Shown here one piece after another: positions 19,423-56,291 of a stretch of DNA of 64,000 nt; the first letter of the stretch is position 1, and the number at the start of each line of letters is the position of its first letter. Made by a program: the position numbers and the translations under genes. This DNA comes from Chthonomonadia bacterium (GTDB lineage: Bacteria > Armatimonadota > HRBIN16): positions 211,594 through 275,593 of the forward strand of contig JABUFA010000001.1 of the NCBI GenBank assembly GCA_013314755.1, written 5' to 3'. The notes beneath the pieces were generated by a model, which made no database searches, had not been told where the DNA came from, and worked only from the letters and a program-made list of their open reading frames with translations.

Positions 19423-19433
19423 CGAGAGGAACT

Positions 19434-38600: not shown

Positions 38601-41600
38601 TCGCCGACGGTGGGCACTAACGTCCAGCTGGTCCAGTCCGGCGCCACGCCTACCGGGTCGGTCGGGGGAGCCAACGCACCGCCTCGCGCAGCAGCAGACA
38701 GGTCTACGCCACCTGCAGATACCCTCAACGCTCGTTCAGGGATGTCCGGGTAGTCGACGCTGGTGTTCGGGATGTTCACCGGCAGCTCGTCCCAGGGCAG
38801 GGGGTTAATCACCGCCAGCGAGCCATCGTCGTTGTTGTGCCATGCCAGTCGCTCGCGCTCGACTTTCACCCGAAGCGGGTCACCGCCCAGCAGAGCCACC
38901 TTCGAGCGGTCGGCAATCTGGATGAGCCGGCTTCCGCTGGCGCCGTGCGGCACCAGCCCCATGACCACCCACGCCAGGTTCTTGCCGGCGTTGCCGTTCA
39001 TACTCAGCTCCTGCGGCACCGAGTTACCGACCACCGTTTGCCCAATCCATCCTACCTCAAAGGTAGTGTTGGGGTTGATGGTGCCGTCCGGGTTCAGGAT
39101 GCGCAGCGCCAGCGGGTGGGCAATGGTGAACTCGAAGTATGGGTCTACCGTGCGCTCCATCGTGATTGTGGTGGTTTGCTGTCCGCCGCCTGTGGTGGTG
39201 GTTGCGGTGGCACGTACAGCGGCGGTGTAGCGTGCGCCGGGCGTCCACGCATCGCCGTCCTGTGTCGGTACGATACGGAAGGCGTGATACGCCATCCATT
39301 TCTGGTTCACGCCCACGTCGGTTCCATATGGTACCACACCAACCGTGCGGTTCACCGTCGCGGCGCGACTGCGCAGACTCAGCGTCACCGAGCGGGCAGG
39401 AGGCACCAGCCCCTGCATTCCATAGGCGATCACGTACACCGTATCGCCCCACTCATAGCCAATCTTGCGCGTGTGTCCGCCGGCGACCACCTCTTCTGGC
39501 GTGCGGGTGCGCCGCTGTACGATGTCGGCGTACTCTTCCGCCGTGAAGATTTCCACCTTCAGGTTCGTCAGTTCTGGCGTCAGCGAGGCGTCCACCAGCT
39601 CCGCGCCCGGAGGCTCACCCGGCGTCAGATAGCCACCGGTTGGCGAGAAGGCGTAGATGATGCCGTCATCTCCGGCGATGTACATCCAGTCGTTCGCCAC
39701 CGCGGGCGAGGCAAATACCGACTGCCCCAGCGTCTGCCAGCCCCACAGCACATCGCCGCGCACGTTAATCGGGTTGCCGTTGTTGTCCAGCACCTGCCGG
39801 AAAGTGCCCGGTCCGCTGTTGAACGCGCTGAGCGCCAGCACCTTGCCGTCCATCAAGCCGAATACAATAGCCGGCAGGGGACCCGTGCCTGTCGCCGAGC
39901 GGCTGGGGATAATCTGCGTGAACGTGATGGAGGAGTAGATCGACGCACCCATCGAGCCGCTGGCGGATGCCACCGGGTTCAGCGGGTCGGTCACATCCTG
40001 CCAAACCAGCTCCGTCCTGCCATCGCCTGTGCCCTGCGCATCCAGGGCGTACACGGTGCCGCCCCGGTCGCCGATAAACACCACGTCGCGGACACCGGTA
40101 ATGGTGGTAACCTGCGCTGCCACCGTCGGCGAGGAGTACAGGAACGGCTCTACGGGGTCTTCATCGCCTGCTGTGCTTACGGGTGGATTCTGGGCATAGG
40201 GCCACACCCACACCCGCTCGGTGCGCCGGCGACCGCTGCCTTTCTCCTTGACGCAATATACTCGTCCATCCGCGGCGGCGAAGTACACTTTGCCGTCAAA
40301 GATAGCCGGCGTGGTGGAGATGGCGTCCAGAGGCAGCTCTTCGTTCAGCGCGGGATCGTCGCCCGAGGCGGGTTCATATTTGCCCGGATAAACCCAGCGT
40401 TCGGTGGTGGTACCGCTGGAGCCTTCGGCGTCCAGGGCGTACATTCGCCCATCCAGACCGCCCACGAAAATGGTCGGACCGACGTCGCTGGTGCGGTTGT
40501 ATGCGGGCGAAGAGACGAAACCGTTCACGACCGCCGCCTTATCCGCGGCGGGATAAATCCAGATACGGTCGGTGGTACCCGGGTTGGTCGCGCTGAAGTC
40601 GCCATTTCCGCTGGCATCCAAACAGTACACGCGCCCGTTGGAGTTGGCAACATACACCCGCCAGTCGGGCGAGCCGCTTGTCCCGATATTCACCACCAGC
40701 GGGGAGGAGTATCCAAAGGAACCGACCACCGGTCGCTCATTCAGGGGCTCTTCGGGATACACCCAGTACGAGAAGGTCGTGCCGTCGCCGTTGCCCACGG
40801 CGTCCAGCGCATATACCTTGCCGTCATTCGCGGAGAAGAAGACCACCTGCCTGTCGGCAACCGTTCCGCCGGAGACGCGCATGGGCACGGTCTGCACCAC
40901 CGGAGTGGAGAAGATACCGCTGGCGCCCGTTCCCTGCTCCACAAACCGCGCCGCGTCGGCAATCACCACGCGCCCTTCGGTCACCTCGCTGGCTTTGCGG
41001 CAGTAGTTGACCAGCTCCACGTAGTTGGTCGTACCCTGTCGCATCCGGTAGGTGCCCAGGCTGAACCACTGTCCGCCCGCCGTGTTCTGCGTCTGGTCTA
41101 CCTCCACCACCGTGTCACCGTCCTCGTGGTGCACGATATAGCGGGCTGCCGTCGTGCGGCTCACGCTACCGTCGTCCTGGGGCAGCCAGACGTAAATAGT
41201 GTACTGCGCCGTTGTCGCTCCGTTGGAGGGTTGAAGGTCTGGTTGCCAACGCACACGCCTCCAGGTGGTGGAATCGGTGCTGCCTGTGACCGTTGTCTGC
41301 AGGTAGCTGGTGCTGTACGGGTCGGGCTGAGGCGTTGCGGGTGCTGTCCAGCCCGGGTCCGCCTGGAAGGTGGGCGCACCGTCGGCGTCATCTACGGTAA
41401 CCGCCCGCTGTCCGCTCACGTTCAGCGGATAGCGCCACACCACTCGCCCGGCGTTGTCAAAGCAGTACATCACGCCGATTTCCACGCTGGCGGTGGGGTC
41501 GTTCGGGTCGGCGACACGCTCGATGCGTCCGATGAACACCCTCTGCGCCAGCTGTCCGGGCGCAACCTGTATCATTGCCGCCACCGGCGAGGAGTAGAAC

Positions 41601-42439
41601 GAGCCCAGGTCGGGCATAAAGCGCACGCCGTCGAACACCACCAGTCGCCCAGCGTCATCAAAGTTGCCGTCATCGTCGGTGTGCGTGGAGGTGTTGTATG
41701 CGTAAACCTCTACGGGGCGTCGTCCGTCGAAGGGAAAAGTCAGGTCACTGCGTAGCCGGGTACGCTCCCACCTGCTGGTGGCGGAGTTGTACACGTAGGC
41801 GATGCTTCCTGCCGTGCCCAATCGTATCCAGTTACCACCGGCTGTCTGGTCCACCACCAGAATGACCTCGCCGTAGGTGTTTGTGCCGGTGGGATAACGC
41901 ACCTTGTATACCGCTTCGCGCACGTTGCGGTTGCCCTGCGTGCCGCTGGAGGGGAACCATACGGCAATCTGATAGCGAGTGGGTCTGGCAACAAGCGGGT
42001 TATAGGCGGAATCGGCCGGGTCCAGCTCGTTCGGAGTAGCATTACGCCATCGCACAACCACCGTGGCACCGCTCGTGGGGTCATTGGCGTTGCTGGGGTT
42101 GACTGCTGTGGCGTAGTCGTAGGAGTCGCGGAAACCGTCGGTCACGGCGTTGGTATCGGTGATGGTGATGGTGGTCACCGAGCCCTGCGTTACCGTGTAG
42201 TCACCAGCGCGGTTGACCCCGTCGCGGTCTATCTCCAGCGTGATGCCTCTATCCTGCTGGGCGGGCCACCACCAGCGCAGATACGCCCTGCCCGGACCCT
42301 GCTCGGTGCTGAGGTTTGTCGCGCCTGTACGCTGAGGGTCGCGGCGGAACATCGGAAAATCGTCCGCCCACACCGCGCACTGCCCAAGCAGCACGCTCCC
42401 GATTATCCATGCCAGTAACCAGTTTCTCGCTGTTGCCAT
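35615..42439 (-). CDS. giant exported beta-propeller protein with two golvesin-like domains
   Basis: 2274 residues from the ATG at 42439; the frame is open further to 42586, but only this start gives a signal peptide ('LLAWIIGSVLLGQCAVWA', cut before DDFP). 'FPMFRRDPQRTG' begins a PQQ/BamB-like propeller, as in quinoprotein-like exported proteins. Golvesin-C-like domains lie near residues 155-225 ('RYQIAVWFPSSGTQGNRNVREAVY', 'VVDQTAGGNWIRLG') and 405-500 ('YTIYVWLPQDDGSVSRTTAARYIVHHEDG'). Blades repeat as 'VYALDA.G.GDG' and 'VYCLDASG', residues about 550-950. The C-terminal 1300 residues are beta-rich and Pro-rich with further propeller-like runs. Last gene of the pilus operon; likely surface-exposed or secreted. 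Function unknown. Confidence 0.85.
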   Translation of the reverse strand: MATARNWLLAWIIGSVLLGQCAVWADDFPMFRRDPQRTGATNLSTEQGPGRAYLRWWWPAQQDRGITLEIDRDGVNRAGDYTVTQGSVTTITITDTNAVTDGFRDSYDYATAVNPSNANDPTSGATVVVRWRNATPNELDPADSAYNPLVARPTRYQIAVWFPSSGTQGNRNVREAVYKVRYPTGTNTYGEVILVVDQTAGGNWIRLGTAGSIAYVYNSATSRWERTRLRSDLTFPFDGRRPVEVYAYNTSTHTDDDGNFDDAGRLVVFDGVRFMPDLGSFYSSPVAAMIQVAPGQLAQRVFIGRIERVADPNDPTASVEIGVMYCFDNAGRVVWRYPLNVSGQRAVTVDDADGAPTFQADPGWTAPATPQPDPYSTSYLQTTVTGSTDSTTWRRVRWQPDLQPSNGATTAQYTIYVWLPQDDGSVSRTTAARYIVHHEDGDTVVEVDQTQNTAGGQWFSLGTYRMRQGTTNYVELVNYCRKASEVTEGRVVIADAARFVEQGTGASGIFSTPVVQTVPMRVSGGTVADRQVVFFSANDGKVYALDAVGNGDGTTFSYWVYPEEPLNERPVVGSFGYSSPLVVNIGTSGSPDWRVYVANSNGRVYCLDASGNGDFSATNPGTTDRIWIYPAADKAAVVNGFVSSPAYNRTSDVGPTIFVGGLDGRMYALDAEGSSGTTTERWVYPGKYEPASGDDPALNEELPLDAISTTPAIFDGKVYFAAADGRVYCVKEKGSGRRRTERVWVWPYAQNPPVSTAGDEDPVEPFLYSSPTVAAQVTTITGVRDVVFIGDRGGTVYALDAQGTGDGRTELVWQDVTDPLNPVASASGSMGASIYSSITFTQIIPSRSATGTGPLPAIVFGLMDGKVLALSAFNSGPGTFRQVLDNNGNPINVRGDVLWGWQTLGQSVFASPAVANDWMYIAGDDGIIYAFSPTGGYLTPGEPPGAELVDASLTPELTNLKVEIFTAEEYADIVQRRTRTPEEVVAGGHTRKIGYEWGDTVYVIAYGMQGLVPPARSVTLSLRSRAATVNRTVGVVPYGTDVGVNQKWMAYHAFRIVPTQDGDAWTPGARYTAAVRATATTTTGGGQQTTTITMERTVDPYFEFTIAHPLALRILNPDGTINPNTTFEVGWIGQTVVGNSVPQELSMNGNAGKNLAWVVMGLVPHGASGSRLIQIADRSKVALLGGDPLRVKVERERLAWHNNDDGSLAVINPLPWDELPVNIPNTSVDYPDIPERALRVSAGGVDLSAAARGGALAPPTDPVGVAPDWTSWTLVPTVGEVMVQVPQFQPANLVGFDGINPLTARGYATRFRAPIRVYVDVNNNGDLDLPGGARLRQTPPVTREEPYREFRITLGIPPDMRLRVEEETIDIGAVPHGFGVHPDPATHAFRPPISDSDPTYLNDPWYQSLKPFWKPFTVRSLSNVNLLNVRAVGSVDYLDAGGNPVFQNPLPITLVSDQVNPYYWEVSPIGDPTFTFHKPALTAGWVRRSDGSVVQQNVFTSLDQIYDPMWLAMRPPLYNGFPGMHTLHKPRPDSSPTVLSIPDKPYPGAAGGAFDNVPTTKPLVSVQVPLGTPAGTYSNLIRIFEAASWNPYVLGVLANNEPAQPVSEPTMRVKVTVTESRLTNSTSSGSLPQVDTIWQGIPPQPGQPGYLSANVQPAALMGADSMLLAWSSNWSRNRPVEDGTDSYRETQPSGSNAWFLHVAVLPRDAQRGVWMPASPTQWWSGRSVEYPRDPTNSAVRDKYGKLFTTLPGTVIPSSIKHYAPTFFVAGGQPYLLWQGQAAKRQDNGSILIENVTFVAPIVNGVPGTPVALGNDAALPRFQPRVTVIGGVPVMFWYSGASGRYTIYYNACLGNPLNPSAWTRDQQLPVPAVVTNAFEPLAIPRAGYLDVIYTASTKTRQTNEILLTRFRLGGGGALTPVNLPPVRGEVLQRIGTTNVWMSRDLSWARGQRIRIWRVGDPQPLAANDIQQSGNYWYGQQYDSNTGILYLTRYTDSARTQIDWQAVIDLSAGTVTFPYRAPSRTDVIFADYTPRAMRLTANHGWNSLMPNDGVPVPQPIAFYAGANSAPTGGLEKSQNPRWKYILPALNNPTQSPPVDRLWLFYRKSTGSPTAEVFVAKTMRLGIYLPAPVYTPIITDGQGERRPDVSGVQVTGLSAPVGPVEVDFARGRLYFTEADEGKLVSITYTALDAQGNPESSPRTVVGVVRWIDETSEATEGSQAMVPLVGATSESNLFALKDEFEPKVWLFWNSTRGGTSDLFFEAFSPRLYPDVIVP

Positions 42440-42521: not shown

Positions 42522-45500
42522 TCAGAACGGTCTATCCGCATAGAAGGGTGTATCCACCCGATATGTGTCACTGCTGACGACCTCATTGACGTTCGCCCAG
42601 CTCTTCACCCGTCGCGGCGTCCACCACACGATGTCCTCCGGCCTCATCCCGTCGGTCAGGTAGGTGCGTGGACCGTCAATTTCATTTTCCACCCGTGTGG
42701 CGCCCGGGTTGTAGTTGGCGGGGTCTATCTCAAAGACCTCTCCGTTGAACCTGCTGCTATCGGGCAGGAGCCCGCGATAGGCGTTGGCTATCAGGTAGTG
42801 TCCGTTGGGCAGACGTACAGCGCTCACCGCCCACAGCGGGATAGCCCGGCTGATGTATACATCCACCGGCTGTGGTCCTCTGATGCGGTCCCGCAGGTGC
42901 GTCAGACTGCGGTACACCTCGTCGGTCAGCCTCCATTTGATACGCCACTGATTGGGCGCGAGGCGTTCCAGGTCAAACACGCCCTTATCGGTGGCGAGTA
43001 CGATGTTGTACACGACGGTTCCTGTTGCGCTGTCGTAGCGCACCGGATACACCTGCACGCTGTTCGGACTGCCGATAGGCACCCGGTTATTGGAGCCGAG
43101 CGGTTCGTTGGGCAGAAGTACCTCGCTGAAAGCTTCGGTGATGTCCAGTCCAGCGCCGATGGTGCGCACCATCACCGTGCCCCCGACGCCCTCTTCGCCC
43201 GTGCCGTCCGGGCGCACGCGATAGTTGGCTACCGTCGCCACTAGTGTAAACACCGGTGCACCGCCGCTGTAGCCCGACACGATGCGCTGGATACCCGTGT
43301 AGCGGTACTTGCGCCTCTCGGCGCCGCTCGCGCTTGTCCAGAACAGCTGGCGTCCTGCAATCAGCGGACCGACCGCTCCAGTGGTGGCATCGGCGGCGTA
43401 GCGGTCTACCACGTCGATCAGCCGCCCGTTGCCCGTGTCGGCAATCAGGTAGTGCACCCAGAACTCCAGGTCCTGCGCGTCTTCAAAGGGGTTGACCCGA
43501 TTGCCACCCGCTTCTTTCGGCACGTATTCGGTGTAGATGTTCACGTCCTGCGGCTCGCGCAGTTCGTGCGGGTCGCCCGGCATCAGCGGGGCGGGCGGCT
43601 TCGTGGGGTCCGACAGGTCAAGGCGAGGCGGGTTCTCGAATCGGCGCAGTTCCGCCGTCACGTTGCCCGACCGATCCACCCACACGATGCGGTTGTTGCC
43701 GGTATCTACCACAATCATCTCGTTTGCGCTGGTGCGATACACTTTTGCAGGGCGTGCCACCGATGTAGGCGTCACGCTCACCACTGGCGCGGAACCACCT
43801 GAAGCGGTTCCCCACAGCCTGCTGGCATCCATGCTCCACGCCACCTTGCCGCCCGGGTCCATTTCCAGCAGGCGGTGGCTGTCGGCAATCAGCGTCATCT
43901 GACGCTCAAACACCTTGATGCCCGTATCGCCGACCGCCGCCAGCAGTCCACCCGACACGGCGACCGACGCGATGCCCTGAGTGCCCACCTGCGCCCGACG
44001 CAGCTCGTTCAGTGTGGCTGTCAGCAGGTTGACCAGAGACGGTCCCCACGTCGCCGGGTTGTTCGGGTCGTAGCCGTAATCCGCCGGCTTGCCCAGCGCG
44101 GGCCACAGCACGTGGTTCGGCTTGTCCGAGTCCTGGGTAATCAATGGCACGTCGTCGCCCGTCTGGATGCTGGGGTCGGTTGCGGTGGGATCGGCAGAGA
44201 CCGCAATCACCGTAGAGACCTGCACTCCCGGCGCATCTACCTGCACCGGCAGGTATACCACGTCGCCCGCCACTACCGGCGATGCCTTCACCCGCACCGC
44301 CGGGATGAACATGAACCACTTCAGGTTGCTGTAGGTAGAAGGCTGGATGAAATACTGGCGCGGCGGCTCACTGCCTGCAGTGACCACCACCAGCGTGGGC
44401 TGAGACAGGCTGAAGGCGAATATTGCGCCGCCTCCGCCCGCGCCCGGCATCATGTTATTGATGGTGATGATTCCGCCAGCCCGGTTGACCGAATACTGCG
44501 CCGGCTGCACATAGGTATACTGCGTAGGACCGCTGGCACTGCGTATCACGTCCACCTGCCGGATTTGCAGGGTGGCGTTGCCCGGGATGGCGATGGGGTT
44601 GCCGTTGTCGTCGCGCAGGCGCAGTTCCACGCGCGGGTTGTTGTTGAACGCCATCAGCACCGTGCCCGGTATCTCGCCGATGGGCGGACCGAAGTTTGCG
44701 CGCGCCTCCGCCACCGCGTAGGTGGTGTCGCCGAACACGGCAGGCGGTGCAGAGAAGCCGACCGGGTTAATGCCGATGTACTGCCCGGAGGGCAGCGGCG
44801 TGCCGAACAGCGTGTGCTTCAGCTGCAGGGATGGGGGCACGTTCACCTGCTGTTGAGGCGTAATCTGGTCGGTGTATCCGTTGTGCAGCTGCCAGCGCCA
44901 GCGCATCACCGTTCGGTTGCCCGGCTGTTCCAGCACGGCGTACACACTGCCATTATCGGTGGTATAAATCACGTTATCGCCGGCATCCAGCGCGGGCTGA
45001 CCCATGATGTTTTTGCTCGGATTGGGCACGACGTCGGCGATACCCACGCTGGTGCGTACCGGTGTGCCGGGCGACTTGCCCCAGTCGATAAAGTAGTTCA
45101 TTACCACCACCGGGTTGGTGGCTGGCTGGCTGGAGAACTGAATCGTGCCTGCGTTCACCGTCACGCGCGAATCGGGCAGGTCGTAGCGGTCTACCAGCAC
45201 CAGCGAGCCGTCCGTCTGGCGGTTATACACCCACACCACCGGGTTCAGCGGGGTGTAAGGGCTGGTTGGGTCCGCCAGGAAGATGTGCAGCTGCCGTCCC
45301 TGCGCGCGGGTGACAAAAGTGCGCTTATCGTTGTTCGGGTTGCTGAGCACCTCACCCTTCGTGCCCAGCCAGAAAGCGTACACGGCGCTGGTCAGCGTGC
45401 CCGTAGTGGAGCTGGGAGCAGTGGAGACGTAAGCCATCAGGTCGGAAGCGATGGAGCCTTCGCCCGTTTGCCCTCTGTCCTGCACATAGCCCAGTGTGAC

Positions 45501-47069
45501 GCCACCACGTATCAGGGGCAGGTTGGTGCGAGGCTGTATCCAGTCTTGCCCGGAACTGCCGGAGTTAATCACCTCACCGGTGATCGCCCACAGCACATAC
45601 AGCCGTCCGTTATTGCCGCTCGTACCCGCCTGCATAGCGGGCACCACAATCAGCCCTTCCGCCGCGGCGGCAACGGGAATATCATCGGTATCAAACGGCA
45701 CGGCGTTGGGCAGGTTGCGCTCCCAGACTAGGTTCGAGCCATCCGACAGCCCGGCGATGGGCGAGTTGATACCTCCCGTGCGCGGGAAGGCGCGGTATGC
45801 CTGAACGGTGCCGTTCTTCAGCGTCACCACAACCAGCGCACGCTGAAGCGGGTCGTTGCTGGAGGTTGGTGTCTCCACGATTTGCGGTGTGGAAACAGGT
45901 TCCGACCCCAGCGGAGCCTCCCATATCTCATCGTAGGGCGTGCCCCTCTGCCACAGGTCGGGCAGACCATCATCCTCATTGCCATCGCCGTCGATATCGC
46001 GGCGCGGGTTGGCATCGAAGCAGTACAGGCGCAGTCCACCCAGAGGCGACGCACCGACCACAAAGAGCGCGCCGTTGTAGAACACCGGTGCCGAGGCGAA
46101 CGTGCCCACTGCCTGCAGTCCAGCCAATCCCCACTTTTCCACCAGCGGCGCCCCTGCACTCTCGAACGTGCCCGAGGTGCGGCGCGCGCTTTTGCGCTGT
46201 GCGGTAAACGCCGACGCCCACTGAATCATGTTGTAGCCGAACTTCAGGTTCGGGGGCGCAGCGGCGGCAAAGTTGTCGTTGGCGACCGGAACGCCCGGCG
46301 GAGCCACCGCATGGCTGAGCGCATAGGCAATACCGATAGAGGAAACCACTACCGCCCCACTGCCATACTGTCCTGCCATCAGCACCGGGCGTCGGTTATC
46401 CTGGCGCACCGCAATCGGAGCCAGCACACCGGGTGCAGGGGGAGCGTTCAGGTCGGCGCCGACCGCGCTCAGCGAGCCGCGAATGCCCGCGCCCATCCGG
46501 TTCAGCTCCCCCAACCGAATGGGGTAGGGGATGTTCACCAGCGGATGGGTGGGATATACCAGCAGTCCGTTGGTCAGCCCTTCGTCGTTGAACTGTAGGT
46601 CGAGGAAAAGGGGCGCGCGTGTGTCGATGGTATAAGCCGTCTGGTTATCGATCCAGAGCAGACCGCCCGCGTCCACAAATTTGCGCAGCTTTTCGCGCTG
46701 TTCGGGGGTGAAGGCGATGTTACTGCCCTGCGTGGCAATGACCGCGGCGTCGAACTTGCGCAGGTCTTCCATCGAAACCGTGTCCAGGTTCACCACCCAG
46801 TAGGGCGCCATGTTCTTCCTGCTGCCCGGTCCAGCCAGCGGGTTGACGAAATCCCACCCGCCGGGCTTGTAGTCGGTTCGTCTGTCCAGCACGTGCCACA
46901 CGAAGGGGGTAAGCACGGGGTTATTACCGACCTGCAGCACGCAGACGCGAATCTGCTTGCGCACGGCGGTGTACGTATAAGCATCCCCCTGTGCTGTGCG
47001 AGAGATCCCCAGCCACATGGCGAAGACGCCCAGTCCTATCAGTATCAACAGTCGGTTTCGCATAGCCAT
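42522..47069 (-). CDS. giant exported beta-propeller protein with an N-terminal amidotransferase-like domain
   Basis: 1515 residues; the ATG at 47069 shares one base with the stop of the 79-residue gene (TGATG). Signal peptide 'LLILIGLGVFAMWLGISRTAQGDA'. Residues about 40-240 look like a class I glutamine-amidotransferase/ThuA-type Rossmann domain ('DAAVIATQGSNIAFTPEQREKLRKFVDAGGLLWIDNQT', 'GSGAVVVSSIGIAYAL'), without an evident Cys nucleophile. Propeller segments follow ('GALFVVGASPLGGLRLYCFDANP', 'DAGDNVIYTTDNGSVYAVLEQPG') and NHL-like text near the end ('NEMIVVDTGNNRIVWVDRSGNV'). Embedded in the pilus operon before the 2274-residue protein. Probably extracellular; function unknown. Confidence 0.83.
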   Translation of the reverse strand: MAMRNRLLILIGLGVFAMWLGISRTAQGDAYTYTAVRKQIRVCVLQVGNNPVLTPFVWHVLDRRTDYKPGGWDFVNPLAGPGSRKNMAPYWVVNLDTVSMEDLRKFDAAVIATQGSNIAFTPEQREKLRKFVDAGGLLWIDNQTAYTIDTRAPLFLDLQFNDEGLTNGLLVYPTHPLVNIPYPIRLGELNRMGAGIRGSLSAVGADLNAPPAPGVLAPIAVRQDNRRPVLMAGQYGSGAVVVSSIGIAYALSHAVAPPGVPVANDNFAAAAPPNLKFGYNMIQWASAFTAQRKSARRTSGTFESAGAPLVEKWGLAGLQAVGTFASAPVFYNGALFVVGASPLGGLRLYCFDANPRRDIDGDGNEDDGLPDLWQRGTPYDEIWEAPLGSEPVSTPQIVETPTSSNDPLQRALVVVTLKNGTVQAYRAFPRTGGINSPIAGLSDGSNLVWERNLPNAVPFDTDDIPVAAAAEGLIVVPAMQAGTSGNNGRLYVLWAITGEVINSGSSGQDWIQPRTNLPLIRGGVTLGYVQDRGQTGEGSIASDLMAYVSTAPSSTTGTLTSAVYAFWLGTKGEVLSNPNNDKRTFVTRAQGRQLHIFLADPTSPYTPLNPVVWVYNRQTDGSLVLVDRYDLPDSRVTVNAGTIQFSSQPATNPVVVMNYFIDWGKSPGTPVRTSVGIADVVPNPSKNIMGQPALDAGDNVIYTTDNGSVYAVLEQPGNRTVMRWRWQLHNGYTDQITPQQQVNVPPSLQLKHTLFGTPLPSGQYIGINPVGFSAPPAVFGDTTYAVAEARANFGPPIGEIPGTVLMAFNNNPRVELRLRDDNGNPIAIPGNATLQIRQVDVIRSASGPTQYTYVQPAQYSVNRAGGIITINNMMPGAGGGGAIFAFSLSQPTLVVVTAGSEPPRQYFIQPSTYSNLKWFMFIPAVRVKASPVVAGDVVYLPVQVDAPGVQVSTVIAVSADPTATDPSIQTGDDVPLITQDSDKPNHVLWPALGKPADYGYDPNNPATWGPSLVNLLTATLNELRRAQVGTQGIASVAVSGGLLAAVGDTGIKVFERQMTLIADSHRLLEMDPGGKVAWSMDASRLWGTASGGSAPVVSVTPTSVARPAKVYRTSANEMIVVDTGNNRIVWVDRSGNVTAELRRFENPPRLDLSDPTKPPAPLMPGDPHELREPQDVNIYTEYVPKEAGGNRVNPFEDAQDLEFWVHYLIADTGNGRLIDVVDRYAADATTGAVGPLIAGRQLFWTSASGAERRKYRYTGIQRIVSGYSGGAPVFTLVATVANYRVRPDGTGEEGVGGTVMVRTIGAGLDITEAFSEVLLPNEPLGSNNRVPIGSPNSVQVYPVRYDSATGTVVYNIVLATDKGVFDLERLAPNQWRIKWRLTDEVYRSLTHLRDRIRGPQPVDVYISRAIPLWAVSAVRLPNGHYLIANAYRGLLPDSSRFNGEVFEIDPANYNPGATRVENEIDGPRTYLTDGMRPEDIVWWTPRRVKSWANVNEVVSSDTYRVDTPFYADRPF

Positions 47070-47308
47070 CACCCTTCTTCTCTCGGCTCAATCTGTTCGG
47101 GATCGATACCCAGCTCACGTAATCGCTGTGCCAGACGTTCGGCACGCTGTTGCGCACGGCGGCGTTCCGCGCCCCGGTCATGGAAAAGCGCTTGGAGCCC
47201 TCCTTCGATGGTCACTATCCAACGAAACTGCTTTGTGTTGTCCGCCATCGGCTTGCCATCGGACTCAGGGTAGACCACTGGCTCCCGTTGCGAGGCGAGG
47301 ACAGCCAT
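47069..47308 (-). CDS. 79-residue soluble coiled-coil protein in the pilus operon
   Basis: Short but well supported: GAGGTGAT before the ATG, one base after the stop of the 900-residue gene, and its own stop overlaps the next start. The N-terminal 40 residues are a short beta-like region ('FRWIVTIEGGLQALF'). The rest is a charged helix ('ERRRAQQRAERLAQRLRELGIDPEQIEP') that closely resembles the C-terminal tails of many Uma2 proteins. No signal or membrane segment, so it should stay in the cytoplasm. Family not recognised. Confidence 0.75.
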   Translation of the reverse strand: MAVLASQREPVVYPESDGKPMADNTKQFRWIVTIEGGLQALFHDRGAERRRAQQRAERLAQRLRELGIDPEQIEPREEG

Positions 47309-47309
47309 A

Positions 47310-50012
47310 TCACCTCATCTCCCCCACATAGAGCAGTCCCGGACTGACCGGCAGGCGCGGCATCGGCGGCAGACGCCGTCCATACTGATCGACGCGCACC
47401 ACGCCCGCTGTGGTAAACACCGGGTCGTACTCCATCACCAGGTTATAGCCCATTGGCAGATTGCGAGTGGGGTCTCGCGGGTCGCGCAGATGGAACGGCG
47501 GTATCGGAATGCCCGAATTGCCGTACTGCGGTGGGATCCATCCCCACTTCTTCAGCCACTCGCCCTGGTCCTGGATTGCCCATGGCAGGTTCTCGGCTAT
47601 CGCGCCTCGGATGGTGATGCGGATGTCCAGAGGTTGTCCGTAGAACGGATAGATGGGTGTCTGTACGTTGTATAACTGCCGGCGCAGGTTCTGGTCCACC
47701 GACGATGGGCTGGAACCGATTGGGAACGTGTCGCGCGGGTCGGTGTTGAACCACTCGCCGGGCAGAACCACGAACGAACCCTCCTGCGCGTACATCAGCG
47801 CCTCGATGGCGATGTCCAGCGGCACCACCGCCACCCGGCTCAGGTGGTACTCGTTAGCGGGCGCGTTGCCCCAACCGCTGTTGACTTCAAAGGTGAGCCG
47901 GTTTTCATCGCCCGGTCTGGTGTTCAGCACGTAGTCGCTGCGCGGATTGGTGGGGTCCGTCGGCGGGTTGGAGTTGAAGGGCGATATATTGCGCAGGAGC
48001 TCCAGCCCCAGGTGTTCGTAGTTCACGCCTGAAGCGTTCACCAGATAGATGGTAGGCAGTCCCAGCGCATCAGACAGCCCACCCGGGAAGCGATACAGGT
48101 CTTCATCCAGAACGCCGTTGCCGTTGGTATCGTTCACCGGGTAGTTCACATGCAGGAAGATGCTGGTCTGTTCGTTCTCAATAGCCGCATGGCGCACCAG
48201 CAGTTTCAAGCCGTGCGGCCAGGTGTTGCTGTAGTAGTTGTTCAGCGAAATGGCTGACGAGAACACAAAGGACTGGCGCTGGGTGGGCAGGATAGCGCGA
48301 TGCCACGATGGGAAGTTCAGCGGTGCATCCTGCTCGTTCCAGCTGCCCGCCTCCGTGCCCAGTTCGGGGTCGATGAACAGGGTGGTGTTGACCACCACAT
48401 TCTTCTTCGCCAGCAGAGCAATCGCGCTGGTGTTGTCGGGCTGACCGTTGGGCAGGCGCGGCTTCATCAGGTTGCCCTCGATGAAGATGTCGCCGCCAGA
48501 CACCACCGTTAACTGCTTGCCAGCAGGAATGATGCCGCGGATGCGCACGTTCCCCTCCGCGTAGATGACCCCTGTAAACGGCGTCACAAAGGGCAGACCC
48601 ACCGCCGACTTGTTCAGCGACGGGTCCAGGAGGTCCTGAGACAGCCGCCCATCGGGCAGGTAGGTGCACACCATCGTCACGGCGTTGGTGGGGGAGCCGT
48701 TGGGTGCGCGCCACCGCCCGCGCGTCAGCTGGATGGTGAAGCCGTTGGGGTTCAGACGGATGATTGCGCCCGGTGGAACGTAGTACGGTCCCTGCCAGTT
48801 GCGCGAATCGATCAGGCGCAGGAACTCACTACGCACGGTGGGACCGCCGAACAGCCCCGGCTCGCGAAGGACGTCGGCGCGGTTGTTGATATAGATGCCC
48901 CTGCCAAAGCCGAACAGCCCGCTATTGCGCCCGCCAACCAGCGCACCCGAGTTGCGCGTCATGCTCCAGTAGCGGTTGACGTTGGTGGCAGGGTCGGTCA
49001 GGTCGATAATCGGTGGCTCCAGGCGTGTGATAGAGCGTCCGCCGCCGTCCACGCCCACTCCCATGCGTCCATCGCGCACGACGCCGCCATAGGTGCTGAA
49101 GCTGGTACTGCTGCTGGGCAGAAGGATATTATTGTTCACGCTGACCTGTGCCCTAGGCGCCAGCAGGATGTCTCCCGCCACCTCTAACCGGTCGCCGTTT
49201 TGCGGGTTCATGGTCAGCTCCACCTCGCCGTACCAGCGGATGTTTCCGTTGATTCGGATGGGTGCGCCGCTGGTATTACTGCCCCAAATGAGTCGGACGG
49301 GTATCGGGTTGCCGCTGGCATCGTGTCCCACGATACCCTCGGGCACGCCCAGTTCTACCATCACGTTGGCGCGGTTGTCGCGGTTGGTGACGAAGCGCAG
49401 ATAGTCGGTGATGCCGATGGCTTTATATGCCACCATCTCGCGTCGCAGCCCTGTAGCCGCGCTGGTGAGCATGGTCGGGTCGTTGGGTTCAATCCTGCCC
49501 ACTCGCCCGATGGATTCTATCTTGATATAACGCGAGAGGGGACCCGATTCGGGGTCATTCGGGTCATAGGGGCGCGGATTATAGGTAACCCGAATCAGCG
49601 CACGCCCGTTCTCGAACAGCACCCGACTGTAGCCGCCGCTGGGTCCGGCGACCGGCGTGCCGCAGGGGTTCAGCGTGGTGGATTCGGTGGGCGCGTAGGG
49701 ACGCAGCCATGGATAGTCCGGGTCGCGGCACTGGTCGGGAGGCAGGTTTGCCGGCACCGGGCGCCAGTCCGCACCCTCCTCGCTGAAGGTGATCTGCTGG
49801 TCAGCGTACTGGATACCCGCTTCCGCGAAGTACTGCGCGTCGGTTACCCTGCCGCTGCGCGCTGCGTTTTCGAGGTTGCGCCCGATAATCGCCACGAACA
49901 GCGCACCCATGAACATCATCACGAACATAACCACCACGGCTACAATCAGCGTTTGACCACGCTGAGTGTACACGGCGCCGGTAAGACGGTCTCTGCTGTT
50001 CATTTTGTGCAT
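47310..50012 (-). CDS. GspK/PilX-like large minor pilin without Glu5
   Basis: 900 residues. The N-terminus 'TQRGQTLIVAVVVMFVMMFMGALFVAIIGRNLENAARSGRVTDAQYFAEAGIQYADQQI' is that of PilX/GspK-type minor pilins: Gly before the hydrophobic helix, then Val where other pilins carry Glu5. 'AEAGIQYA' is a hallmark of the PilX_N-like group. The remaining 850 residues are a large beta-rich extracellular domain, including 'GVIYAEGNVRIRGIIPAGKQLTVVSGGDIFIEGN', which suggests a stacked beta-solenoid section. In type II systems the Glu5-less GspK caps the pseudopilus tip. The gene is 13 bases after the preceding prepilin gene. Confidence 0.82.
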   Translation of the reverse strand: MHKMNSRDRLTGAVYTQRGQTLIVAVVVMFVMMFMGALFVAIIGRNLENAARSGRVTDAQYFAEAGIQYADQQITFSEEGADWRPVPANLPPDQCRDPDYPWLRPYAPTESTTLNPCGTPVAGPSGGYSRVLFENGRALIRVTYNPRPYDPNDPESGPLSRYIKIESIGRVGRIEPNDPTMLTSAATGLRREMVAYKAIGITDYLRFVTNRDNRANVMVELGVPEGIVGHDASGNPIPVRLIWGSNTSGAPIRINGNIRWYGEVELTMNPQNGDRLEVAGDILLAPRAQVSVNNNILLPSSSTSFSTYGGVVRDGRMGVGVDGGGRSITRLEPPIIDLTDPATNVNRYWSMTRNSGALVGGRNSGLFGFGRGIYINNRADVLREPGLFGGPTVRSEFLRLIDSRNWQGPYYVPPGAIIRLNPNGFTIQLTRGRWRAPNGSPTNAVTMVCTYLPDGRLSQDLLDPSLNKSAVGLPFVTPFTGVIYAEGNVRIRGIIPAGKQLTVVSGGDIFIEGNLMKPRLPNGQPDNTSAIALLAKKNVVVNTTLFIDPELGTEAGSWNEQDAPLNFPSWHRAILPTQRQSFVFSSAISLNNYYSNTWPHGLKLLVRHAAIENEQTSIFLHVNYPVNDTNGNGVLDEDLYRFPGGLSDALGLPTIYLVNASGVNYEHLGLELLRNISPFNSNPPTDPTNPRSDYVLNTRPGDENRLTFEVNSGWGNAPANEYHLSRVAVVPLDIAIEALMYAQEGSFVVLPGEWFNTDPRDTFPIGSSPSSVDQNLRRQLYNVQTPIYPFYGQPLDIRITIRGAIAENLPWAIQDQGEWLKKWGWIPPQYGNSGIPIPPFHLRDPRDPTRNLPMGYNLVMEYDPVFTTAGVVRVDQYGRRLPPMPRLPVSPGLLYVGEMR

Positions 50013-50025
50013 TCCCCCTCCCGCT

Positions 50026-51870
50026 CTATCGTAACAGGTTGCGTACCCGCACCTGTGTGGTCAGCGACATCAATAGCGGGTCGCCCGTTGTTGGGTCGTA
50101 CAGCTTGATATTGATAGCCAGCGTATACTGCGAGCGCGTCATGTAGTCCACTTTCACCACATCGTTCGCGGTATTGGTCTGTATCCAATAGGTGACCCGA
50201 AGCAGGTCGTATGGCGTGCCATCACTGCGCGTGCCCGACGGTATCTGCCACAGCGGCCAGAACTCCACATAGCCTGTCTGCAGGGTCGGGTGCCCATTGT
50301 TCGTGCCCCGGTAGTTGATGCGATACTGGTTCGGACCCGGCGTGACGTTCCAGGGAACCCGGGTGTACGGCACCAGTCGCGGCTCCACGCCGGGCGGTGT
50401 GGTCTGGTCGGGTCCCCAGATGCGCTCGGAGCCGGGCACGATGGAAACCGTTGCCAGCAGTTTCAACGGGCTCTGCCGGTTATTAGAAGCGGTGTTGTTG
50501 ATGTCGGGTTCCGACAGAAGCAGGTAGCGCCGCCCGCTCTCATCCACCTGCGTATTGCGGGCAAGATATTCGAACACCGGTCGCTCGCCCGGACGGAACA
50601 CCACCGTCGCCGGAAGCGCGAAGTTCACCGTTCCCGAGCGCGGATCCACCGTGCACGCCAGGAACGGATAGGGCGCACCGATGGCATTGGGGTTGCGCTC
50701 CCAGTTGTTCCAGGGGTCCGGCAGATTGGAACAGACATCCTGCGCCCACGTGCCCTCATCGTAACAGCCCGAAGACTCCATCAGCTGATAGGCGGTGATG
50801 TTGAACAGCAACGGACCACGCCCTATCAGCAGGTTGCCGTTCTGGTCTATCGTGGTGGTGTAATACAACGGCGGATTAAGGCTCCGATACACGGTAACGG
50901 CAAACGGACTGCTCCAGCCGCCCTTCTTGGTCATGTAGGCGGTTGGGATGGCGTTGGGCACTTCGTTCGCCGCGTCATCCAGCGCGGTAGGCACTGCCGG
51001 GTCGTCCGTCACCAGTCCGGGCAGGAACTGTATCAGCGGGGTCACCTGCACAATTTGCCCCTGCTGGTTGTACTGCACGTTGATGAGGTCGATATCTTCC
51101 ACTTCGGTAACCGGGCGGCTGACCTCTAACCAGTTCTGCATGTACGACCTGCCATTTGGGGCGATGCGCGTGTCATAGAAGAAGCCCGGCTCGTCAAGGA
51201 TCGGCTGTCCGTTCGCATCCAGCTTGAACAATCGGGTATTGGGTACAAATGCTCCATTACCATTGCGCTCGTACAATACGAACTGCGCCCGCCACAGGAT
51301 GTACGGGTTGTCCGCCGCCACAGCAAGCAGCTGTTCGTTGCGGTTGCTGTAGGGTCGGCTTGGGTCGCGGCGAGCGATGAAATAGCGTACGACGGTGCGC
51401 CCCGCCAGCAGGGGAAGGCGCGGCGGATTGCCCACTCTGCGGTCTGGCGGCACATAGTCACTGCCGTCGGTCGGGTCGGTAACTCCGGTGCCGTTCGGGG
51501 TGACACGCTCTGGCAACACGAAGTCGATCTTGGTGTACGGCAGGTAGAAGGTGACCGGGTTGCCCTGTCGATCAGTCAGGTCGAAGCGCAGGGTGGCATC
51601 GTTGACCGGGTTGCTGGTGGTCAGCGGGTTGAGCACGCGTGAGTTGTCGAACACGTATGCCGCGTCGGCGATTTCGCGCGAGATGGTCTCCATCAGGTCG
51701 CGGGCGGTATCCTGTGCCTGAGCCACCCGCTGGACGCGCCTTGTAAAGTTGAAGCTTTGCAGCATGGGACCAAGCAGAAGCCCCAGCATAATGGCGGTAA
51801 TCGCCATCACCACCAGCAGTTCCACCAGAGTAAACGCCTGTCCTATTTTCATGTTGCCTGTATCTCTCAT
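50026..51870 (-). CDS. large prepilin-like protein (614 residues)
   Basis: The ATG at 51870 is chosen for its AGGGGTG site; an ATG at 51903, right after the stop of the previous gene (TAACATG), is also possible and would add 11 residues. Leader then 'GQAFTLVELLVVMAITAIMLGLLLGPML' gives the pilin helix with Glu5 and Ala before FTLVE. 'RVQRVAQAQDTARDLMETISREIADAAYV' resembles PulJ/GspJ-type minor pseudopilins, but the extracellular part (about 550 residues) is far larger than the usual 200. It contains 'CTVDPRSGTVNFALP', a beta motif shared with its neighbours. Confidence 0.88.
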   Translation of the reverse strand: MRDTGNMKIGQAFTLVELLVVMAITAIMLGLLLGPMLQSFNFTRRVQRVAQAQDTARDLMETISREIADAAYVFDNSRVLNPLTTSNPVNDATLRFDLTDRQGNPVTFYLPYTKIDFVLPERVTPNGTGVTDPTDGSDYVPPDRRVGNPPRLPLLAGRTVVRYFIARRDPSRPYSNRNEQLLAVAADNPYILWRAQFVLYERNGNGAFVPNTRLFKLDANGQPILDEPGFFYDTRIAPNGRSYMQNWLEVSRPVTEVEDIDLINVQYNQQGQIVQVTPLIQFLPGLVTDDPAVPTALDDAANEVPNAIPTAYMTKKGGWSSPFAVTVYRSLNPPLYYTTTIDQNGNLLIGRGPLLFNITAYQLMESSGCYDEGTWAQDVCSNLPDPWNNWERNPNAIGAPYPFLACTVDPRSGTVNFALPATVVFRPGERPVFEYLARNTQVDESGRRYLLLSEPDINNTASNNRQSPLKLLATVSIVPGSERIWGPDQTTPPGVEPRLVPYTRVPWNVTPGPNQYRINYRGTNNGHPTLQTGYVEFWPLWQIPSGTRSDGTPYDLLRVTYWIQTNTANDVVKVDYMTRSQYTLAINIKLYDPTTGDPLLMSLTTQVRVRNLLR

Positions 51871-51904: not shown

Positions 51905-53737
51905 TTATTCCACTTCGCGCGTGAGGATGGTTTCCACCTCATAGCGCTGCCAGCGATTGTTCTCCTTCCAGATAACACGCGCCTTGAACGACGCACCTTT
52001 CACTCCACGCACCACGTAGCCGTAGGTGCTGTAGGCGTCCAGGTCCAGCGAAACCGCCGTGGGTTTGATGTCGCGGATGTCTATGTAGCACAGCGGGCGT
52101 CCGCCAACCGATTCGGTGCGGGTGCTGATACGCGCCAGCACTCCCCGCATCACGTCCTTGCCCAGCACGCTGTCGTTGTAGAACACCTCGCCAAGGATGA
52201 CCTGCTTGCCAGCGTCGCACACTGGGAAGTAGATGCGGGTTGGCGAGCCGCCATCGGAGCCTCCACCCACGTAAAACTCCCGATAGCTTAACAGGTTGCC
52301 GTATCGCTCGCGGTATATCTCATACGGCTTCATAATCTGCACGCCCCAGTCCGCATCCGCCTGATAGTAGAAGCGCAGGGTGTGCCCCGCCAGCGACGGA
52401 TCAAGCACGTTCACGATGCCGTTGCGGTAGTCCACCTGGTAGGAGCCGGAGTCGCCCTGCCCCACGATGGGGTCGATAATCTGACCGGTTTGCAGGTCCA
52501 CTGCCACGAAGTCAGGTTGCTGGCGCACCGGGTCGCCCTGCGGCAGGGCGTTCCAGTTCACCCCGCGGATCAGCCCTTCGTAGGTGGTCTGGTCGTCCAG
52601 CTTGTCGCCGCGCTTGCGCAGGAAGCGCAGGTTCAGCTTAATCTCCGCCGGCACGGTGGGCACCAGCCTGTCCTCGCGGATGATGTGCCAGTCCAGCACG
52701 GTGTAATCAATGTGGGCGGTCAGGGGCACCACACCACGAGCCGTGCGCTCGGTGTAGTTGTGTCCGCGCGGGTTGAACAGCAACACGCCCACGTTCGCGT
52801 AGGGACCGATGTTGCCGTAGAGTATCTTGAACTCGTATGGGTCGTCTGACCAGCTCTGCGCCAGCGGAAGGAGCCGGAACTCCCGGCTGACCAGCTCACT
52901 GCCCGCGCGCATCCGCCACCCCGATTCCAGAATGGGCTTGCCATCGGGACCCGTGTAACTGCGCAGTTCAATGCGCACCGGTTCCCCGATTAAGCCCACC
53001 ACGTTGGGGATGGTCTTGGACACCGATTTGAGTTTCCATCCGTCGTTGCCGTCGTAATAGTCGTACGAGATGGTGAAGTCGCGCGGGTAGGACGTCGGAT
53101 AGAACCAGATAACCACGTCGTCGAACGCGCCGTCATCGCTGGCATCGTAGTCGATGGCGTACTGGTGCGGACCGCGCAGAGGTGGTGGCGCGTCCTCCTG
53201 GGCGTTCCATAGCATCCGCACCATGGGCGAGCCGTACACATTGAGATTATTCAGTCGCCACACCTGTGCAACGGGGTCGTACAGCGGCTGGTCGACGAAG
53301 GGACCTGCACCCAGCACGTACACCGACCCCTGTCCCGCCACGGTGGGCACAGGGATAGGCACGCGCACCTTTTCGCCCACCACCCGCCGCCAGCGGTTAA
53401 TATCCGAGTAGTAATAGGCATCGATGCCCGGAGGCAGTGAAGGCGGTGCGAGGTTATCGGGATGTGCGCCGACGTCTATCGCCTCGCCGGTGGTGCTACC
53501 GTCGGAGTACGGCGCCAGCGCCAGAACGCCTGCCGGCAGCGCGGTCGCGTTGTTCTTCCACCGCTCAATCTCCTGCTGAGCCAGTCGGCTGGCGAACGAG
53601 CGGTTCTCCGCCGCACGGGTCACAAAGAACCCGCCCGGGAACAGCTTCAGAATCACCAGAATGCCGATGGTCAGCACGGCAATCGCTGCCAGCACTTCAA
53701 TCAGAGAGAAGGCTTGTCCCCTTCTTCGTTTGTTCAT
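51905..53737 (-). CDS. large prepilin-like protein (610 residues)
   Basis: ATG at 53737 with GGAGGGG just upstream. 'MNKRRRGQAFSLIEVLAAIAVLTIGILVILKLFPGGFF' is a prepilin leader and helix with Glu5; 'SFASRLAQQEIERWKN' resembles the PilV/GspI-type minor pilins. The extracellular part (about 570 residues) is unusually large and beta-rich. It contains 'YQVDYRNGIVNVLDPSLAG', matching motifs in the other large proteins of this operon. It follows the 262-residue prepilin by 46 bases and precedes the 614-residue one. Confidence 0.88.
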   Translation of the reverse strand: MNKRRRGQAFSLIEVLAAIAVLTIGILVILKLFPGGFFVTRAAENRSFASRLAQQEIERWKNNATALPAGVLALAPYSDGSTTGEAIDVGAHPDNLAPPSLPPGIDAYYYSDINRWRRVVGEKVRVPIPVPTVAGQGSVYVLGAGPFVDQPLYDPVAQVWRLNNLNVYGSPMVRMLWNAQEDAPPPLRGPHQYAIDYDASDDGAFDDVVIWFYPTSYPRDFTISYDYYDGNDGWKLKSVSKTIPNVVGLIGEPVRIELRSYTGPDGKPILESGWRMRAGSELVSREFRLLPLAQSWSDDPYEFKILYGNIGPYANVGVLLFNPRGHNYTERTARGVVPLTAHIDYTVLDWHIIREDRLVPTVPAEIKLNLRFLRKRGDKLDDQTTYEGLIRGVNWNALPQGDPVRQQPDFVAVDLQTGQIIDPIVGQGDSGSYQVDYRNGIVNVLDPSLAGHTLRFYYQADADWGVQIMKPYEIYRERYGNLLSYREFYVGGGSDGGSPTRIYFPVCDAGKQVILGEVFYNDSVLGKDVMRGVLARISTRTESVGGRPLCYIDIRDIKPTAVSLDLDAYSTYGYVVRGVKGASFKARVIWKENNRWQRYEVETILTREVE

Positions 53738-53783
53738 CACCCCTCCACCGCCTTTCGTCAGGTGGTTTGGTCAATAGTTTCTG

Positions 53784-54572
53784 TTAGTCCAGACACCAGA
53801 ATCGGTTCTGCCCAGCGTTGCTGAAGTTCGGGTCGTTGCCCGTCATTTTCTGCTTGATGATTCGCGAGTCCACCGGTTTGGCTGTGCCGCTTAGCAGAAG
53901 CACGATATCCTTGCTGCCGGGCGCCGGCTGTCCCGAGCTGTCGCAACTGCGATGGTCAGATACCCAGGTGACGATAGTGTTCTCGGGCGGCAGGTTGTAC
54001 TGCAGCTGGCACATGTCGTCCAGCGGACCGGCGGTGTTGTTCGTGGGCAGATACGGACGATACAGGCTGTAGTGTTGCTCGTACACTCCGCTTCCCGGAC
54101 AGGTGGGCCCGATGTCCATGCTATCCAGCAGATAGTACGGACGGGTGACCAGCGCACCGTTGATTTCGTTCACGCGCTGGCTGGGGTTGTTCGGGTCGGG
54201 CAGAAGCACCTCTACCGCTTTCCAGCTGGTCTTGTCGTTTACCGGGTTGTTCGGGCTGCGGAAGATGTTGATGTCGCGGATGTACGCCTGGTACAGGAAA
54301 CCGCCCCGTATCCGGTCGGCAGGCGTTACCTGCGAGTTGTTGATCAGCTCCACGTAGCCCAGTAACGCCTCGGGATACACGCGGTTGTCCTGTTTGTACA
54401 TCTTCAACGCGACCTGTATCTGGTGCAAATTGGACATGGTGGTGGTACGGCGTGCCTGCTCACGCACCGTTGCCGCTACCGGAAAGATGATGGCAGCGAG
54501 CACGGCGATAATGGCTATCACCGTCAGCATCTCCACCATCGTAAACGCGCGGATGTTTATCCGGTCTCGCAT
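53784..54572 (-). CDS. prepilin-like protein (262 residues), probable major pseudopilin
   Basis: 'MRDRINIRAFTMVEMLTVIAIIAVLAAIIFPVAATVREQARRTTTMSNLHQIQVALKMYKQD' is a GspG/PilA-type N-terminus: short leader, Ala before FTMVE, Glu5, and the long amphipathic helix, with 'NRVYPEAL' as in GspG-like pilins. At 262 residues it is the smallest pilin of the operon and the first in order, so it is the best candidate for the shaft subunit. GAGGTG precedes the ATG. It follows the Uma2 gene by 60 bases. Confidence 0.9.
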   Translation of the reverse strand: MRDRINIRAFTMVEMLTVIAIIAVLAAIIFPVAATVREQARRTTTMSNLHQIQVALKMYKQDNRVYPEALLGYVELINNSQVTPADRIRGGFLYQAYIRDINIFRSPNNPVNDKTSWKAVEVLLPDPNNPSQRVNEINGALVTRPYYLLDSMDIGPTCPGSGVYEQHYSLYRPYLPTNNTAGPLDDMCQLQYNLPPENTIVTWVSDHRSCDSSGQPAPGSKDIVLLLSGTAKPVDSRIIKQKMTGNDPNFSNAGQNRFWCLD

Positions 54573-55211: not shown

Positions 55212-56234
55212 CTATCCTCCTCCCGTCGCCCAGCGCCAGTAGGCGTCCCACAGCGCCAGCACATAGGGCTTACCGATGAGTGCAATCAGGGTGGCGGCAA
55301 CAATGTACGGACCGAAGGGGATGGTGGTTAAACCGGGCACGAACTCCTCTTCCGCTTCGGAGGTTGCGGAAGCCTTGCGCGAAGAGAACAAAGAACGCAC
55401 CCCATCATAGAAGAACACCAGCACATCCAGCGCAACCAGCAGAGCCAGGCTGTACAGGAGCATCTGTCCTATCGGCTCGGGAGGGGTTGTTGGAGTGGTG
55501 TCAGCGGGCGTGGTTTCGGCGGGGGACTGTTTCTTTAATGTGAACGCAACCAGAAGCCCTCCCACAATCGCTCCCAGCGCCACCGATCCAGCAAAAGCCA
55601 GCAGAGCCAGCTTCAACGGCATCATTGCGCCGATGGCTCGCGCCAGCTTGACATCTCCAAATCCCATCGCATCCTTTCGAAACATCACTCGCCCCATCAA
55701 AGCGATAGTTGCAAATATCGCAGTGCAAGCCACTGCTCCCACCAGCGCATAGGGCAGATTCCAACCTGCCACCCTTACCCACGCCTGCGGGTTGCCTTCC
55801 TCAATCAACACAATGTTGCGGGCAACCCCCAGCACCAGCATGAAAACGTTTAAGCCGTCCGGTATCAAAAAGTGTTCCAGGTCAATGAAAAAGGCAGCAA
55901 TCAGCGCCGCTGTGAACAGCACATAGAATACGGTATCCCAGCTCCAGCCGTAGCGCCAGTAGATGCCCAGAAACAGCAAGCCGGTAGCGAGTTCCACCCA
56001 GAAATAGCGCCACGAGATGCGCGCGCCACAATAACGACATTTGCCCCTCTGCCATAAAAAGCTCAGCAGAGGCACCAGGTCTTTCACACCCAGCTCGGTC
56101 TTACAGTTTGGGCAGTGGGAGCGTGGCTTGACAATGGATAAACCACGCGGGAGGCGGTAGATAAGCACGTTCAGGAAGCTGCCCACCACCGCCCCATAGA
56201 TAAAAACCACCAGCCCAATGTACCAATCCGGCAT
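55212..56234 (-). CDS. pilD: prepilin peptidase/N-methyltransferase (PilD, peptidase A24)
   Basis: 340 residues from the ATG at 56234. N-terminal 'GSFLNVLIYRLPRGLSIVKPRSHCPNC' and 'CRYCGARIS' carry the two CxxC zinc pairs of full-length PilD. About eight membrane helices. The aspartyl protease residues are in 'FIDLEHFLIPD' and 'GFGDVKLA'. An unusual charged and Thr/Pro-rich insert (about residues 230-255, 'KKQSPAETTPADTTPTTPPEP') and a second polar stretch (about 280-300) interrupt the C-terminal part. It cleaves and methylates the prepilins encoded downstream in this operon. Confidence 0.94.
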   Translation of the reverse strand: MPDWYIGLVVFIYGAVVGSFLNVLIYRLPRGLSIVKPRSHCPNCKTELGVKDLVPLLSFLWQRGKCRYCGARISWRYFWVELATGLLFLGIYWRYGWSWDTVFYVLFTAALIAAFFIDLEHFLIPDGLNVFMLVLGVARNIVLIEEGNPQAWVRVAGWNLPYALVGAVACTAIFATIALMGRVMFRKDAMGFGDVKLARAIGAMMPLKLALLAFAGSVALGAIVGGLLVAFTLKKQSPAETTPADTTPTTPPEPIGQMLLYSLALLVALDVLVFFYDGVRSLFSSRKASATSEAEEEFVPGLTTIPFGPYIVAATLIALIGKPYVLALWDAYWRWATGGG

Positions 56235-56291
56235 CACCCGTTGATTTGCGTCTCCCTCTGGAAAGGGGGGCGGAACCCCGCCCCCCGAATT

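Follow-up and report, generated by a model that had tools for sequence, protein, structure and literature searches.

A probable Glu5-less tip pilin of 900 residues, with giant propeller neighbours, in the type IVa pilus locus of Armatimonadota

Introduction

Among pilins that lack the glutamate usual at position 5 (Glu5), the closest described counterpart of the protein considered here is ComZ of Thermus thermophilus, a solenoid-bearing, DNA-binding pilin of 554 residues with glycine at that position (PMC6561018). Its pilin domain is most like that of GspK, its solenoid has been argued on structural grounds to fit only at the tip, and the described locus comprises five open reading frames, pilA1-4 and comZ (PMC6561018). 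Glu5 is likewise absent from GspK and from the PilX proteins of P. aeruginosa, N. gonorrhoeae and M. xanthus (PMC7541494). PilX is placed beside PilY1 at the tip of the pilus (PMC7541494, PMC13190605), in a modelled order of PilA-FimU-PilW-PilV-PilX-PilY1 (PMC13190605).

Here we describe a prepilin of 900 residues encoded by a Chthonomonadia bacterium of the phylum Armatimonadota (assembly GCA_013314755.1, contig JABUFA010000001.1, positions 211,594 to 275,593 of the forward strand; this whole stretch of 64,000 nucleotides is the window, to which coordinates refer unless prefixed). Its sequence, the order of the genes around it, its conservation, the lack of Glu5 in every readable relative and its modelled fold were observed directly, and by analogy with the systems above it is probably the minor pilin at the very tip of a type IVa pilus, standing in the PilX/GspK position and joining a ComZ-like pilin domain to a large beta-solenoid head. 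This reading is supported by gene order, by the absence of Glu5 throughout the family and by a modelled fold like that of ComZ, and the tip position in particular is well supported by analogy.

The pilus operon

The locus lies on the minus strand and opens with a PilB-like extension ATPase (58815..60584; TIGR02538, 649 bits, just under the curated cut-off), followed by a PilT-family retraction ATPase (57600..58790; TIGR01420, 514 bits against a cut-off of 319.1), a PilC/GspF-like platform protein (56292..57524) and a prepilin peptidase of the A24 family (55212..56237), so that PilB, PilT, PilC and the peptidase share one operon. The presence of PilT marks this as a type IVa pilus locus and not one for type II secretion. 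An earlier note on this DNA had proposed an oversized, Glu5-less tip pilin in a type II setting; the tip pilin itself is supported by gene order, Glu5 loss and the ComZ-like fold, but the setting has given way to the PilT match. The N-terminal part of the PilB-like ATPase contains a cyclic di-GMP-binding motif of the MshE type (NF053729, 60.5 bits, cut-off 38), and pilus extension may therefore be controlled by cyclic di-GMP. A second PilB/GspE-like ATPase, of 476 residues, is encoded at 19263-20693 on the plus strand, with no pilus genes recognised beside it within the window.

After an unrelated small gene, which separates it from the peptidase, comes a GspG-like pilin of 262 residues (53784..54572, minus strand; T2SSG over cut-off, TIGR01710 E 7e-13, below cut-off). 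It is followed on the same strand by a PilV/GspI-like pilin of 611 residues (51905..53740; N_methyl just over cut-off, TIGR02523 PilV E 9.4e-8, below cut-off) and a PilW/GspJ-like pilin of 614 residues (50026..51870; N_methyl 23.1 bits, cut-off 21.2, with weak HpsC and Verru_Chthon C matches), the last counted from the ATG at 51870, the longest frame starting at 51996 and giving 656 residues. All three carry Glu5, as had been claimed, in the contexts A/FTMVE, A/FSLIE and A/FTLVE, respectively. The 900-residue prepilin is next and is the final pilin of the cluster. Across the phylum, the order 262-611-614-900-1516 recurs on one strand in the 20 neighbourhoods retrieved, as far as the contig or fetched stretch extends, with PilB, PilT, PilC and the peptidase upstream of the pilins wherever it reaches them.

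Directly downstream, in the PilY1 position, are two giant propeller proteins that the earlier note left out. The first, of 1516 residues (42522..47072, minus strand), combines a signal-peptide-like N-terminus and a DUF4159-like region (113-286, just under cut-off) with several beta-propellers: residues 301-1500 gave a confident model (pLDDT 84.6) made mainly of beta strands, whose best Foldseek matches were generic multi-propeller proteins (Elongator, CPSF160, designed Cake, NHL), PilY1 being absent among the 50 matches listed. The second, of about 2274 residues (35615..42439, minus strand; likely start at ATG 42439, longest frame from 42586), likewise starts with a signal-peptide-like stretch and carries two Golvesin_C domains (E 3.9e-21) as well as propeller repeats of the BamB/PQQ type; the N-termini of both proteins were judged by eye. 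A search of the whole genome with PF05567 (PilY1) returned nothing over cut-off, these two proteins included. Predicted secreted beta-propeller proteins stand beside the gene in the PilX position, and, like PilY1, they are apparently Sec-secreted and occupy the place of pilY1 relative to pilX. They probably complete the pilus tip.

Sequence and conservation of the 900-residue prepilin

The prepilin gene (47310..50012, minus strand) begins with ATG and encodes a type III leader peptide, MHKMNSRDRLTGAVYTQRG (49956..50012, minus strand), with cleavage predicted after Gly19. The mature protein of 881 residues begins, after that glycine, with QTLIVAVVVM; the earlier reading of valine in place of glutamate at position 5 is borne out by the open reading frame, as is the estimate of about 850 residues outside the membrane (881 less the 25-30 or so within it). 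Scans with Pfam, NCBIfam and PHROGs assigned the protein to no family. The N_methyl model matched 93 frames across the genome, among them the genes for the 262-, 611- and 614-residue pilins, and missed the 900-residue one, as expected of a pilin without the canonical motif. Most of those 93 prepilin-motif matches are open frames of about 250-330 residues. The 900-residue protein is present as a single copy in its own genome, where two further weak matches are confined to the N-terminal region.

Conservation across Armatimonadota is extensive, with the protein found in 264 of 291 genomes and 150 of 156 genera. A profile built from 73 sequences detected it in 38 of 42 genomes, most of which had been picked for weak or absent earlier matches. 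Among the best 80 of 177 relatives, those named belong to HRbin16, Fimbriimonadales, Chthonomonadales, Abditibacteriota and other Armatimonadota; one bears the label Propionibacteriaceae. None of 75 close relatives has Glu at position 5; all carry Ile, Val, Leu, Ala or Thr there (the cleavage sites of relatives L055 and L076 were re-read by eye for this count), and glycine precedes the cleavage site in 72-73 of the 75. Distant homologues with a readable N-terminus likewise lack Glu5, so its absence is a fixed property of the family; the partner pilins read in the 20 neighbourhoods retain it. Measured as open-frame lengths, some of which include residues before the start, relatives of the 900-residue protein span about 740 to about 1300 residues, those of the 611-residue pilin 504-764 and those of the 614-residue pilin 508-800.

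Fold and likeness to ComZ

An AlphaFold2 model of the mature protein, built with the 73 sequences, reached a pLDDT of 85.6 and a pTM of 0.86. Residues 2-57, in the numbering of the mature protein, form a long helix at the N-terminus. Strands at 110-178 make up a pilin-like sheet, after which many short strands, as is typical of a solenoid, cover about 187-530. Beyond them lie a beta-rich region of lower conservation (about 540-700), more strands at 703-788 and a conserved tail. Conservation peaks in the helix, at 461-500 (TGVIYAEGNVRIRGIIPAGKQLTVVSGGDIFIEGNLMKPR), 701-740, 781-800 and 861-880 (RLPPMPRLPVSPGLLYVGEM), whereas the region of about 540-690 is poorly conserved; it and the solenoid take up most of the larger insertions seen in relatives.

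Against the PDB, Foldseek returned ComZ (6QVI) as the sole match with E <0.001 (E 4.5e-7, probability 1.00, 575 columns). The model thus agrees with the earlier description of the sequence as beta-solenoid-like, both in its run of short strands and in its best PDB match. Foldseek's global superposition on ComZ was poor (TM 0.15-0.23, rmsd 15 A), and what is shared is therefore local architecture, not a close copy. Searches of PDB sequences gave no match for the 900-residue protein or its 73-sequence profile, and only chance matches for a 598-residue paralogue (described below) and its profile, so the link to ComZ is one of fold only. Carbohydrate-binding (CBM-like) jelly rolls matched part of the model at E of about 0.01, some with a probability near 1, which we take as no more than a hint. 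Matches in a viral structure library were scattered over parts of the model, none covering the whole.

Like the 900-residue protein, ComZ joins a pilin domain to a large beta-solenoid, lacks Glu5, is encoded beside several pilins (small ones in its case) and has been proposed as a tip pilin. The head had been called exceptionally large, and the 900 residues stand, but a solenoid-bearing tip pilin has a precedent in ComZ, with its Gly5 and 554 residues (PMC6561018), over which the present protein is 1.6 times as large. The partner pilins also differ in size, at 156-233 residues for ComZ and 611-614 here. A further mark of ComZ-type pilins is a solenoid inserted ahead of the last pilin strand; on this point the model of the 900-residue protein gives the order of strands listed above.

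The same genome encodes a second minor-pilin cluster (G000:C8:22478-26085; L181:12480-16086), in which four short Glu5 pilins are followed by a Glu5-less pilin of 598 residues. The latter reads A/TALVT across its predicted cleavage site and has solenoid-like sequence with weak DUF4900 and MinC_C matches. Of 251 Armatimonadota genomes, 65 contain a homologue of it, and relatives of this pilin give weak matches to DUF4900 and PilX_N. Profiles of the 900- and 598-residue proteins aligned over 418 columns (hhalign, 91.9%), helix and solenoid both being alignable. This second cluster resembles Thermus pilA1-3/comZ in size, and differs from the 900-residue locus in its small partner pilins and in that no giant neighbours were seen.

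These comparisons bear on whether the 900-residue protein is itself a ComZ-like pilin for DNA uptake. ComZ is its only significant fold match and binds DNA (PMC6561018), and the genome encodes ComEC; we nevertheless consider such a role unlikely. The cluster with the 598-residue pilin is far nearer to pilA1-3/comZ in size, the mature 900-residue protein has a net charge of -6 and only ten lysines, a charge that lends no support to DNA binding, and the described locus of ComZ, with its role in DNA uptake, is without propeller proteins, whereas two giant ones, one bearing Golvesin_C, adjoin the 900-residue gene. Given the propeller and Golvesin-type neighbours, the charge and the ComZ-sized cluster elsewhere in the genome, we prefer adhesion to DNA uptake as the function of the 900-residue pilin.

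Comparison with PilX, GspK and the Verru_Chthon cassette

With PilX the 900-residue protein shares the lack of Glu5, the place of final pilin in the cluster, an adjoining secreted propeller protein and a locus with PilB, PilT and PilC, and the genes are arranged in the logic of fimU-pilV-pilW-pilX-pilY1. PilX itself is small. The PF14341 (PilX_N) model found nothing over cut-off in the whole genome, the 900-residue protein included, and since neither this model nor PF05567 gave a match above threshold, we assign neither the protein nor its neighbours to PilX or PilY1.

The likeness to GspK lies in the absence of Glu5 and in the K position after I/J-like pilins. Both points of the analogy drawn in the earlier note stand, but PilX, likewise without Glu5 (PMC7541494), is the proper counterpart, and the genome has a conventional T2SSK gene elsewhere (C14). 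GspK itself is a protein of about 320 residues with a helical insert (fold per PMC6561018), whereas here the head is beta-rich and the operon includes PilT. Neither PF03934 nor NF037980 (GspK) matched the 900-residue protein, and relative L053 scored 16.7 bits with NF037980 against a cut-off of 130. That the protein serves as GspK in a type II pseudopilus pushing secreted enzymes out would accord with the missing Glu5, the I/J-like partners and the GspG-like pilin of 262 residues, but we regard it as very improbable in view of the PilT-family ATPase in the operon, the T2SSK gene elsewhere in the genome together with the lack of a T2SSK match here, and a modelled head that is beta-rich and not the helical GspK insert (PMC6561018).

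A further family, Verru_Chthon cassette protein A (TIGR02600), is described by a model of 1296 positions and named as part of a cassette with proteins B, C and D. Relative L083 matched it weakly, over the N-terminal helix only, and the partner pilins weakly match cassette proteins B and C; scores for the 900-residue family are far below the TIGR02600 cut-off, and the cassette C and B models have 361 and 151 positions, as against about 600 residues in the partner pilins here. We found no publication on the cassette. The 900-residue protein is best described as working like PilX, GspK and ComZ, with an architecture closest to that of ComZ; tests of its sequence for membership of each of the three were negative.

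Proposed assembly and significance

As the tip-most pilin, the 900-residue protein would be processed by the A24 peptidase, whose gene lies a short way upstream in the operon, a few genes off, and would enter the nascent filament first; no subunit would then lie above it whose N-terminus Glu5 would neutralise. The 611-residue PilV/GspI-like and 614-residue PilW/GspJ-like pilins would stack below it, priming PilB-driven polymerisation, while conserved surfaces of the 900-residue pilin may hold one or both propeller proteins in place of PilY1. The whole cap would exit via a secretin and serve as an adhesive tip, probably binding glycans or surfaces, that is pulled by PilT retraction. It is highly doubtful that the protein lies away from the tip, as a minor subunit or as a surface protein left in the membrane by its pilin-like helix: a head of such size is sterically awkward and its processing is a prediction, but the prepilin cleavage site and synteny with the pilus machine are conserved across the phylum, and on steric grounds the tip is a likelier place for it than the shaft (PMC6561018).

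A broader and more tentative proposal, which we put forward as possible though short of probable, is that nearly all Armatimonadota build type IV pili bearing a giant tip, a distinct class of tip complex for attachment to glycans or surfaces, in which pilins of 611, 614 and 900 residues are joined by propeller proteins of 1516 and about 2274 residues that replace PilY1, some 5,900 residues in all. With ComZ already known, and the loss of Glu5 usual for such tip pilins, the 900-residue protein does not found a new category. We have found no earlier account of this scale (881 mature residues, with up to about 1300 in relatives), of the enlarged PilV- and PilW-like partners, of the giant propeller proteins that are not PilY1, or of the conservation of these features across the phylum. 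In the literature on pili in Armatimonadota we found no description of the giant pilin and propeller set; the Fimbriimonas genome paper, in the part available, counts pilin genes and reports non-motile cells with fimbriae, and that part does not describe the set.

ComZ thereby gains an apparent fold relative outside Thermus, and the conservation of this relative across a phylum suggests a design that recurs, in which tip pilins without Glu5 bear a solenoid. The locus also offers a type IVa-like system in which, by family models, PilY1 is absent from the genome and other propellers stand in its place, and in which the tip proteins taken together exceed the usual size several-fold. Whether the size of the tip tracks lifestyle in attached, non-swimming bacteria is one question that this raises. 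Another concerns the passage of such a cap through the secretin, and as a counterpoint to the tip reading the 900-residue head must fit through it. Five secretin domains are encoded elsewhere in the genome and could provide for exit through the outer membrane; three are clustered on one contig (G000:C43:55321-59193).
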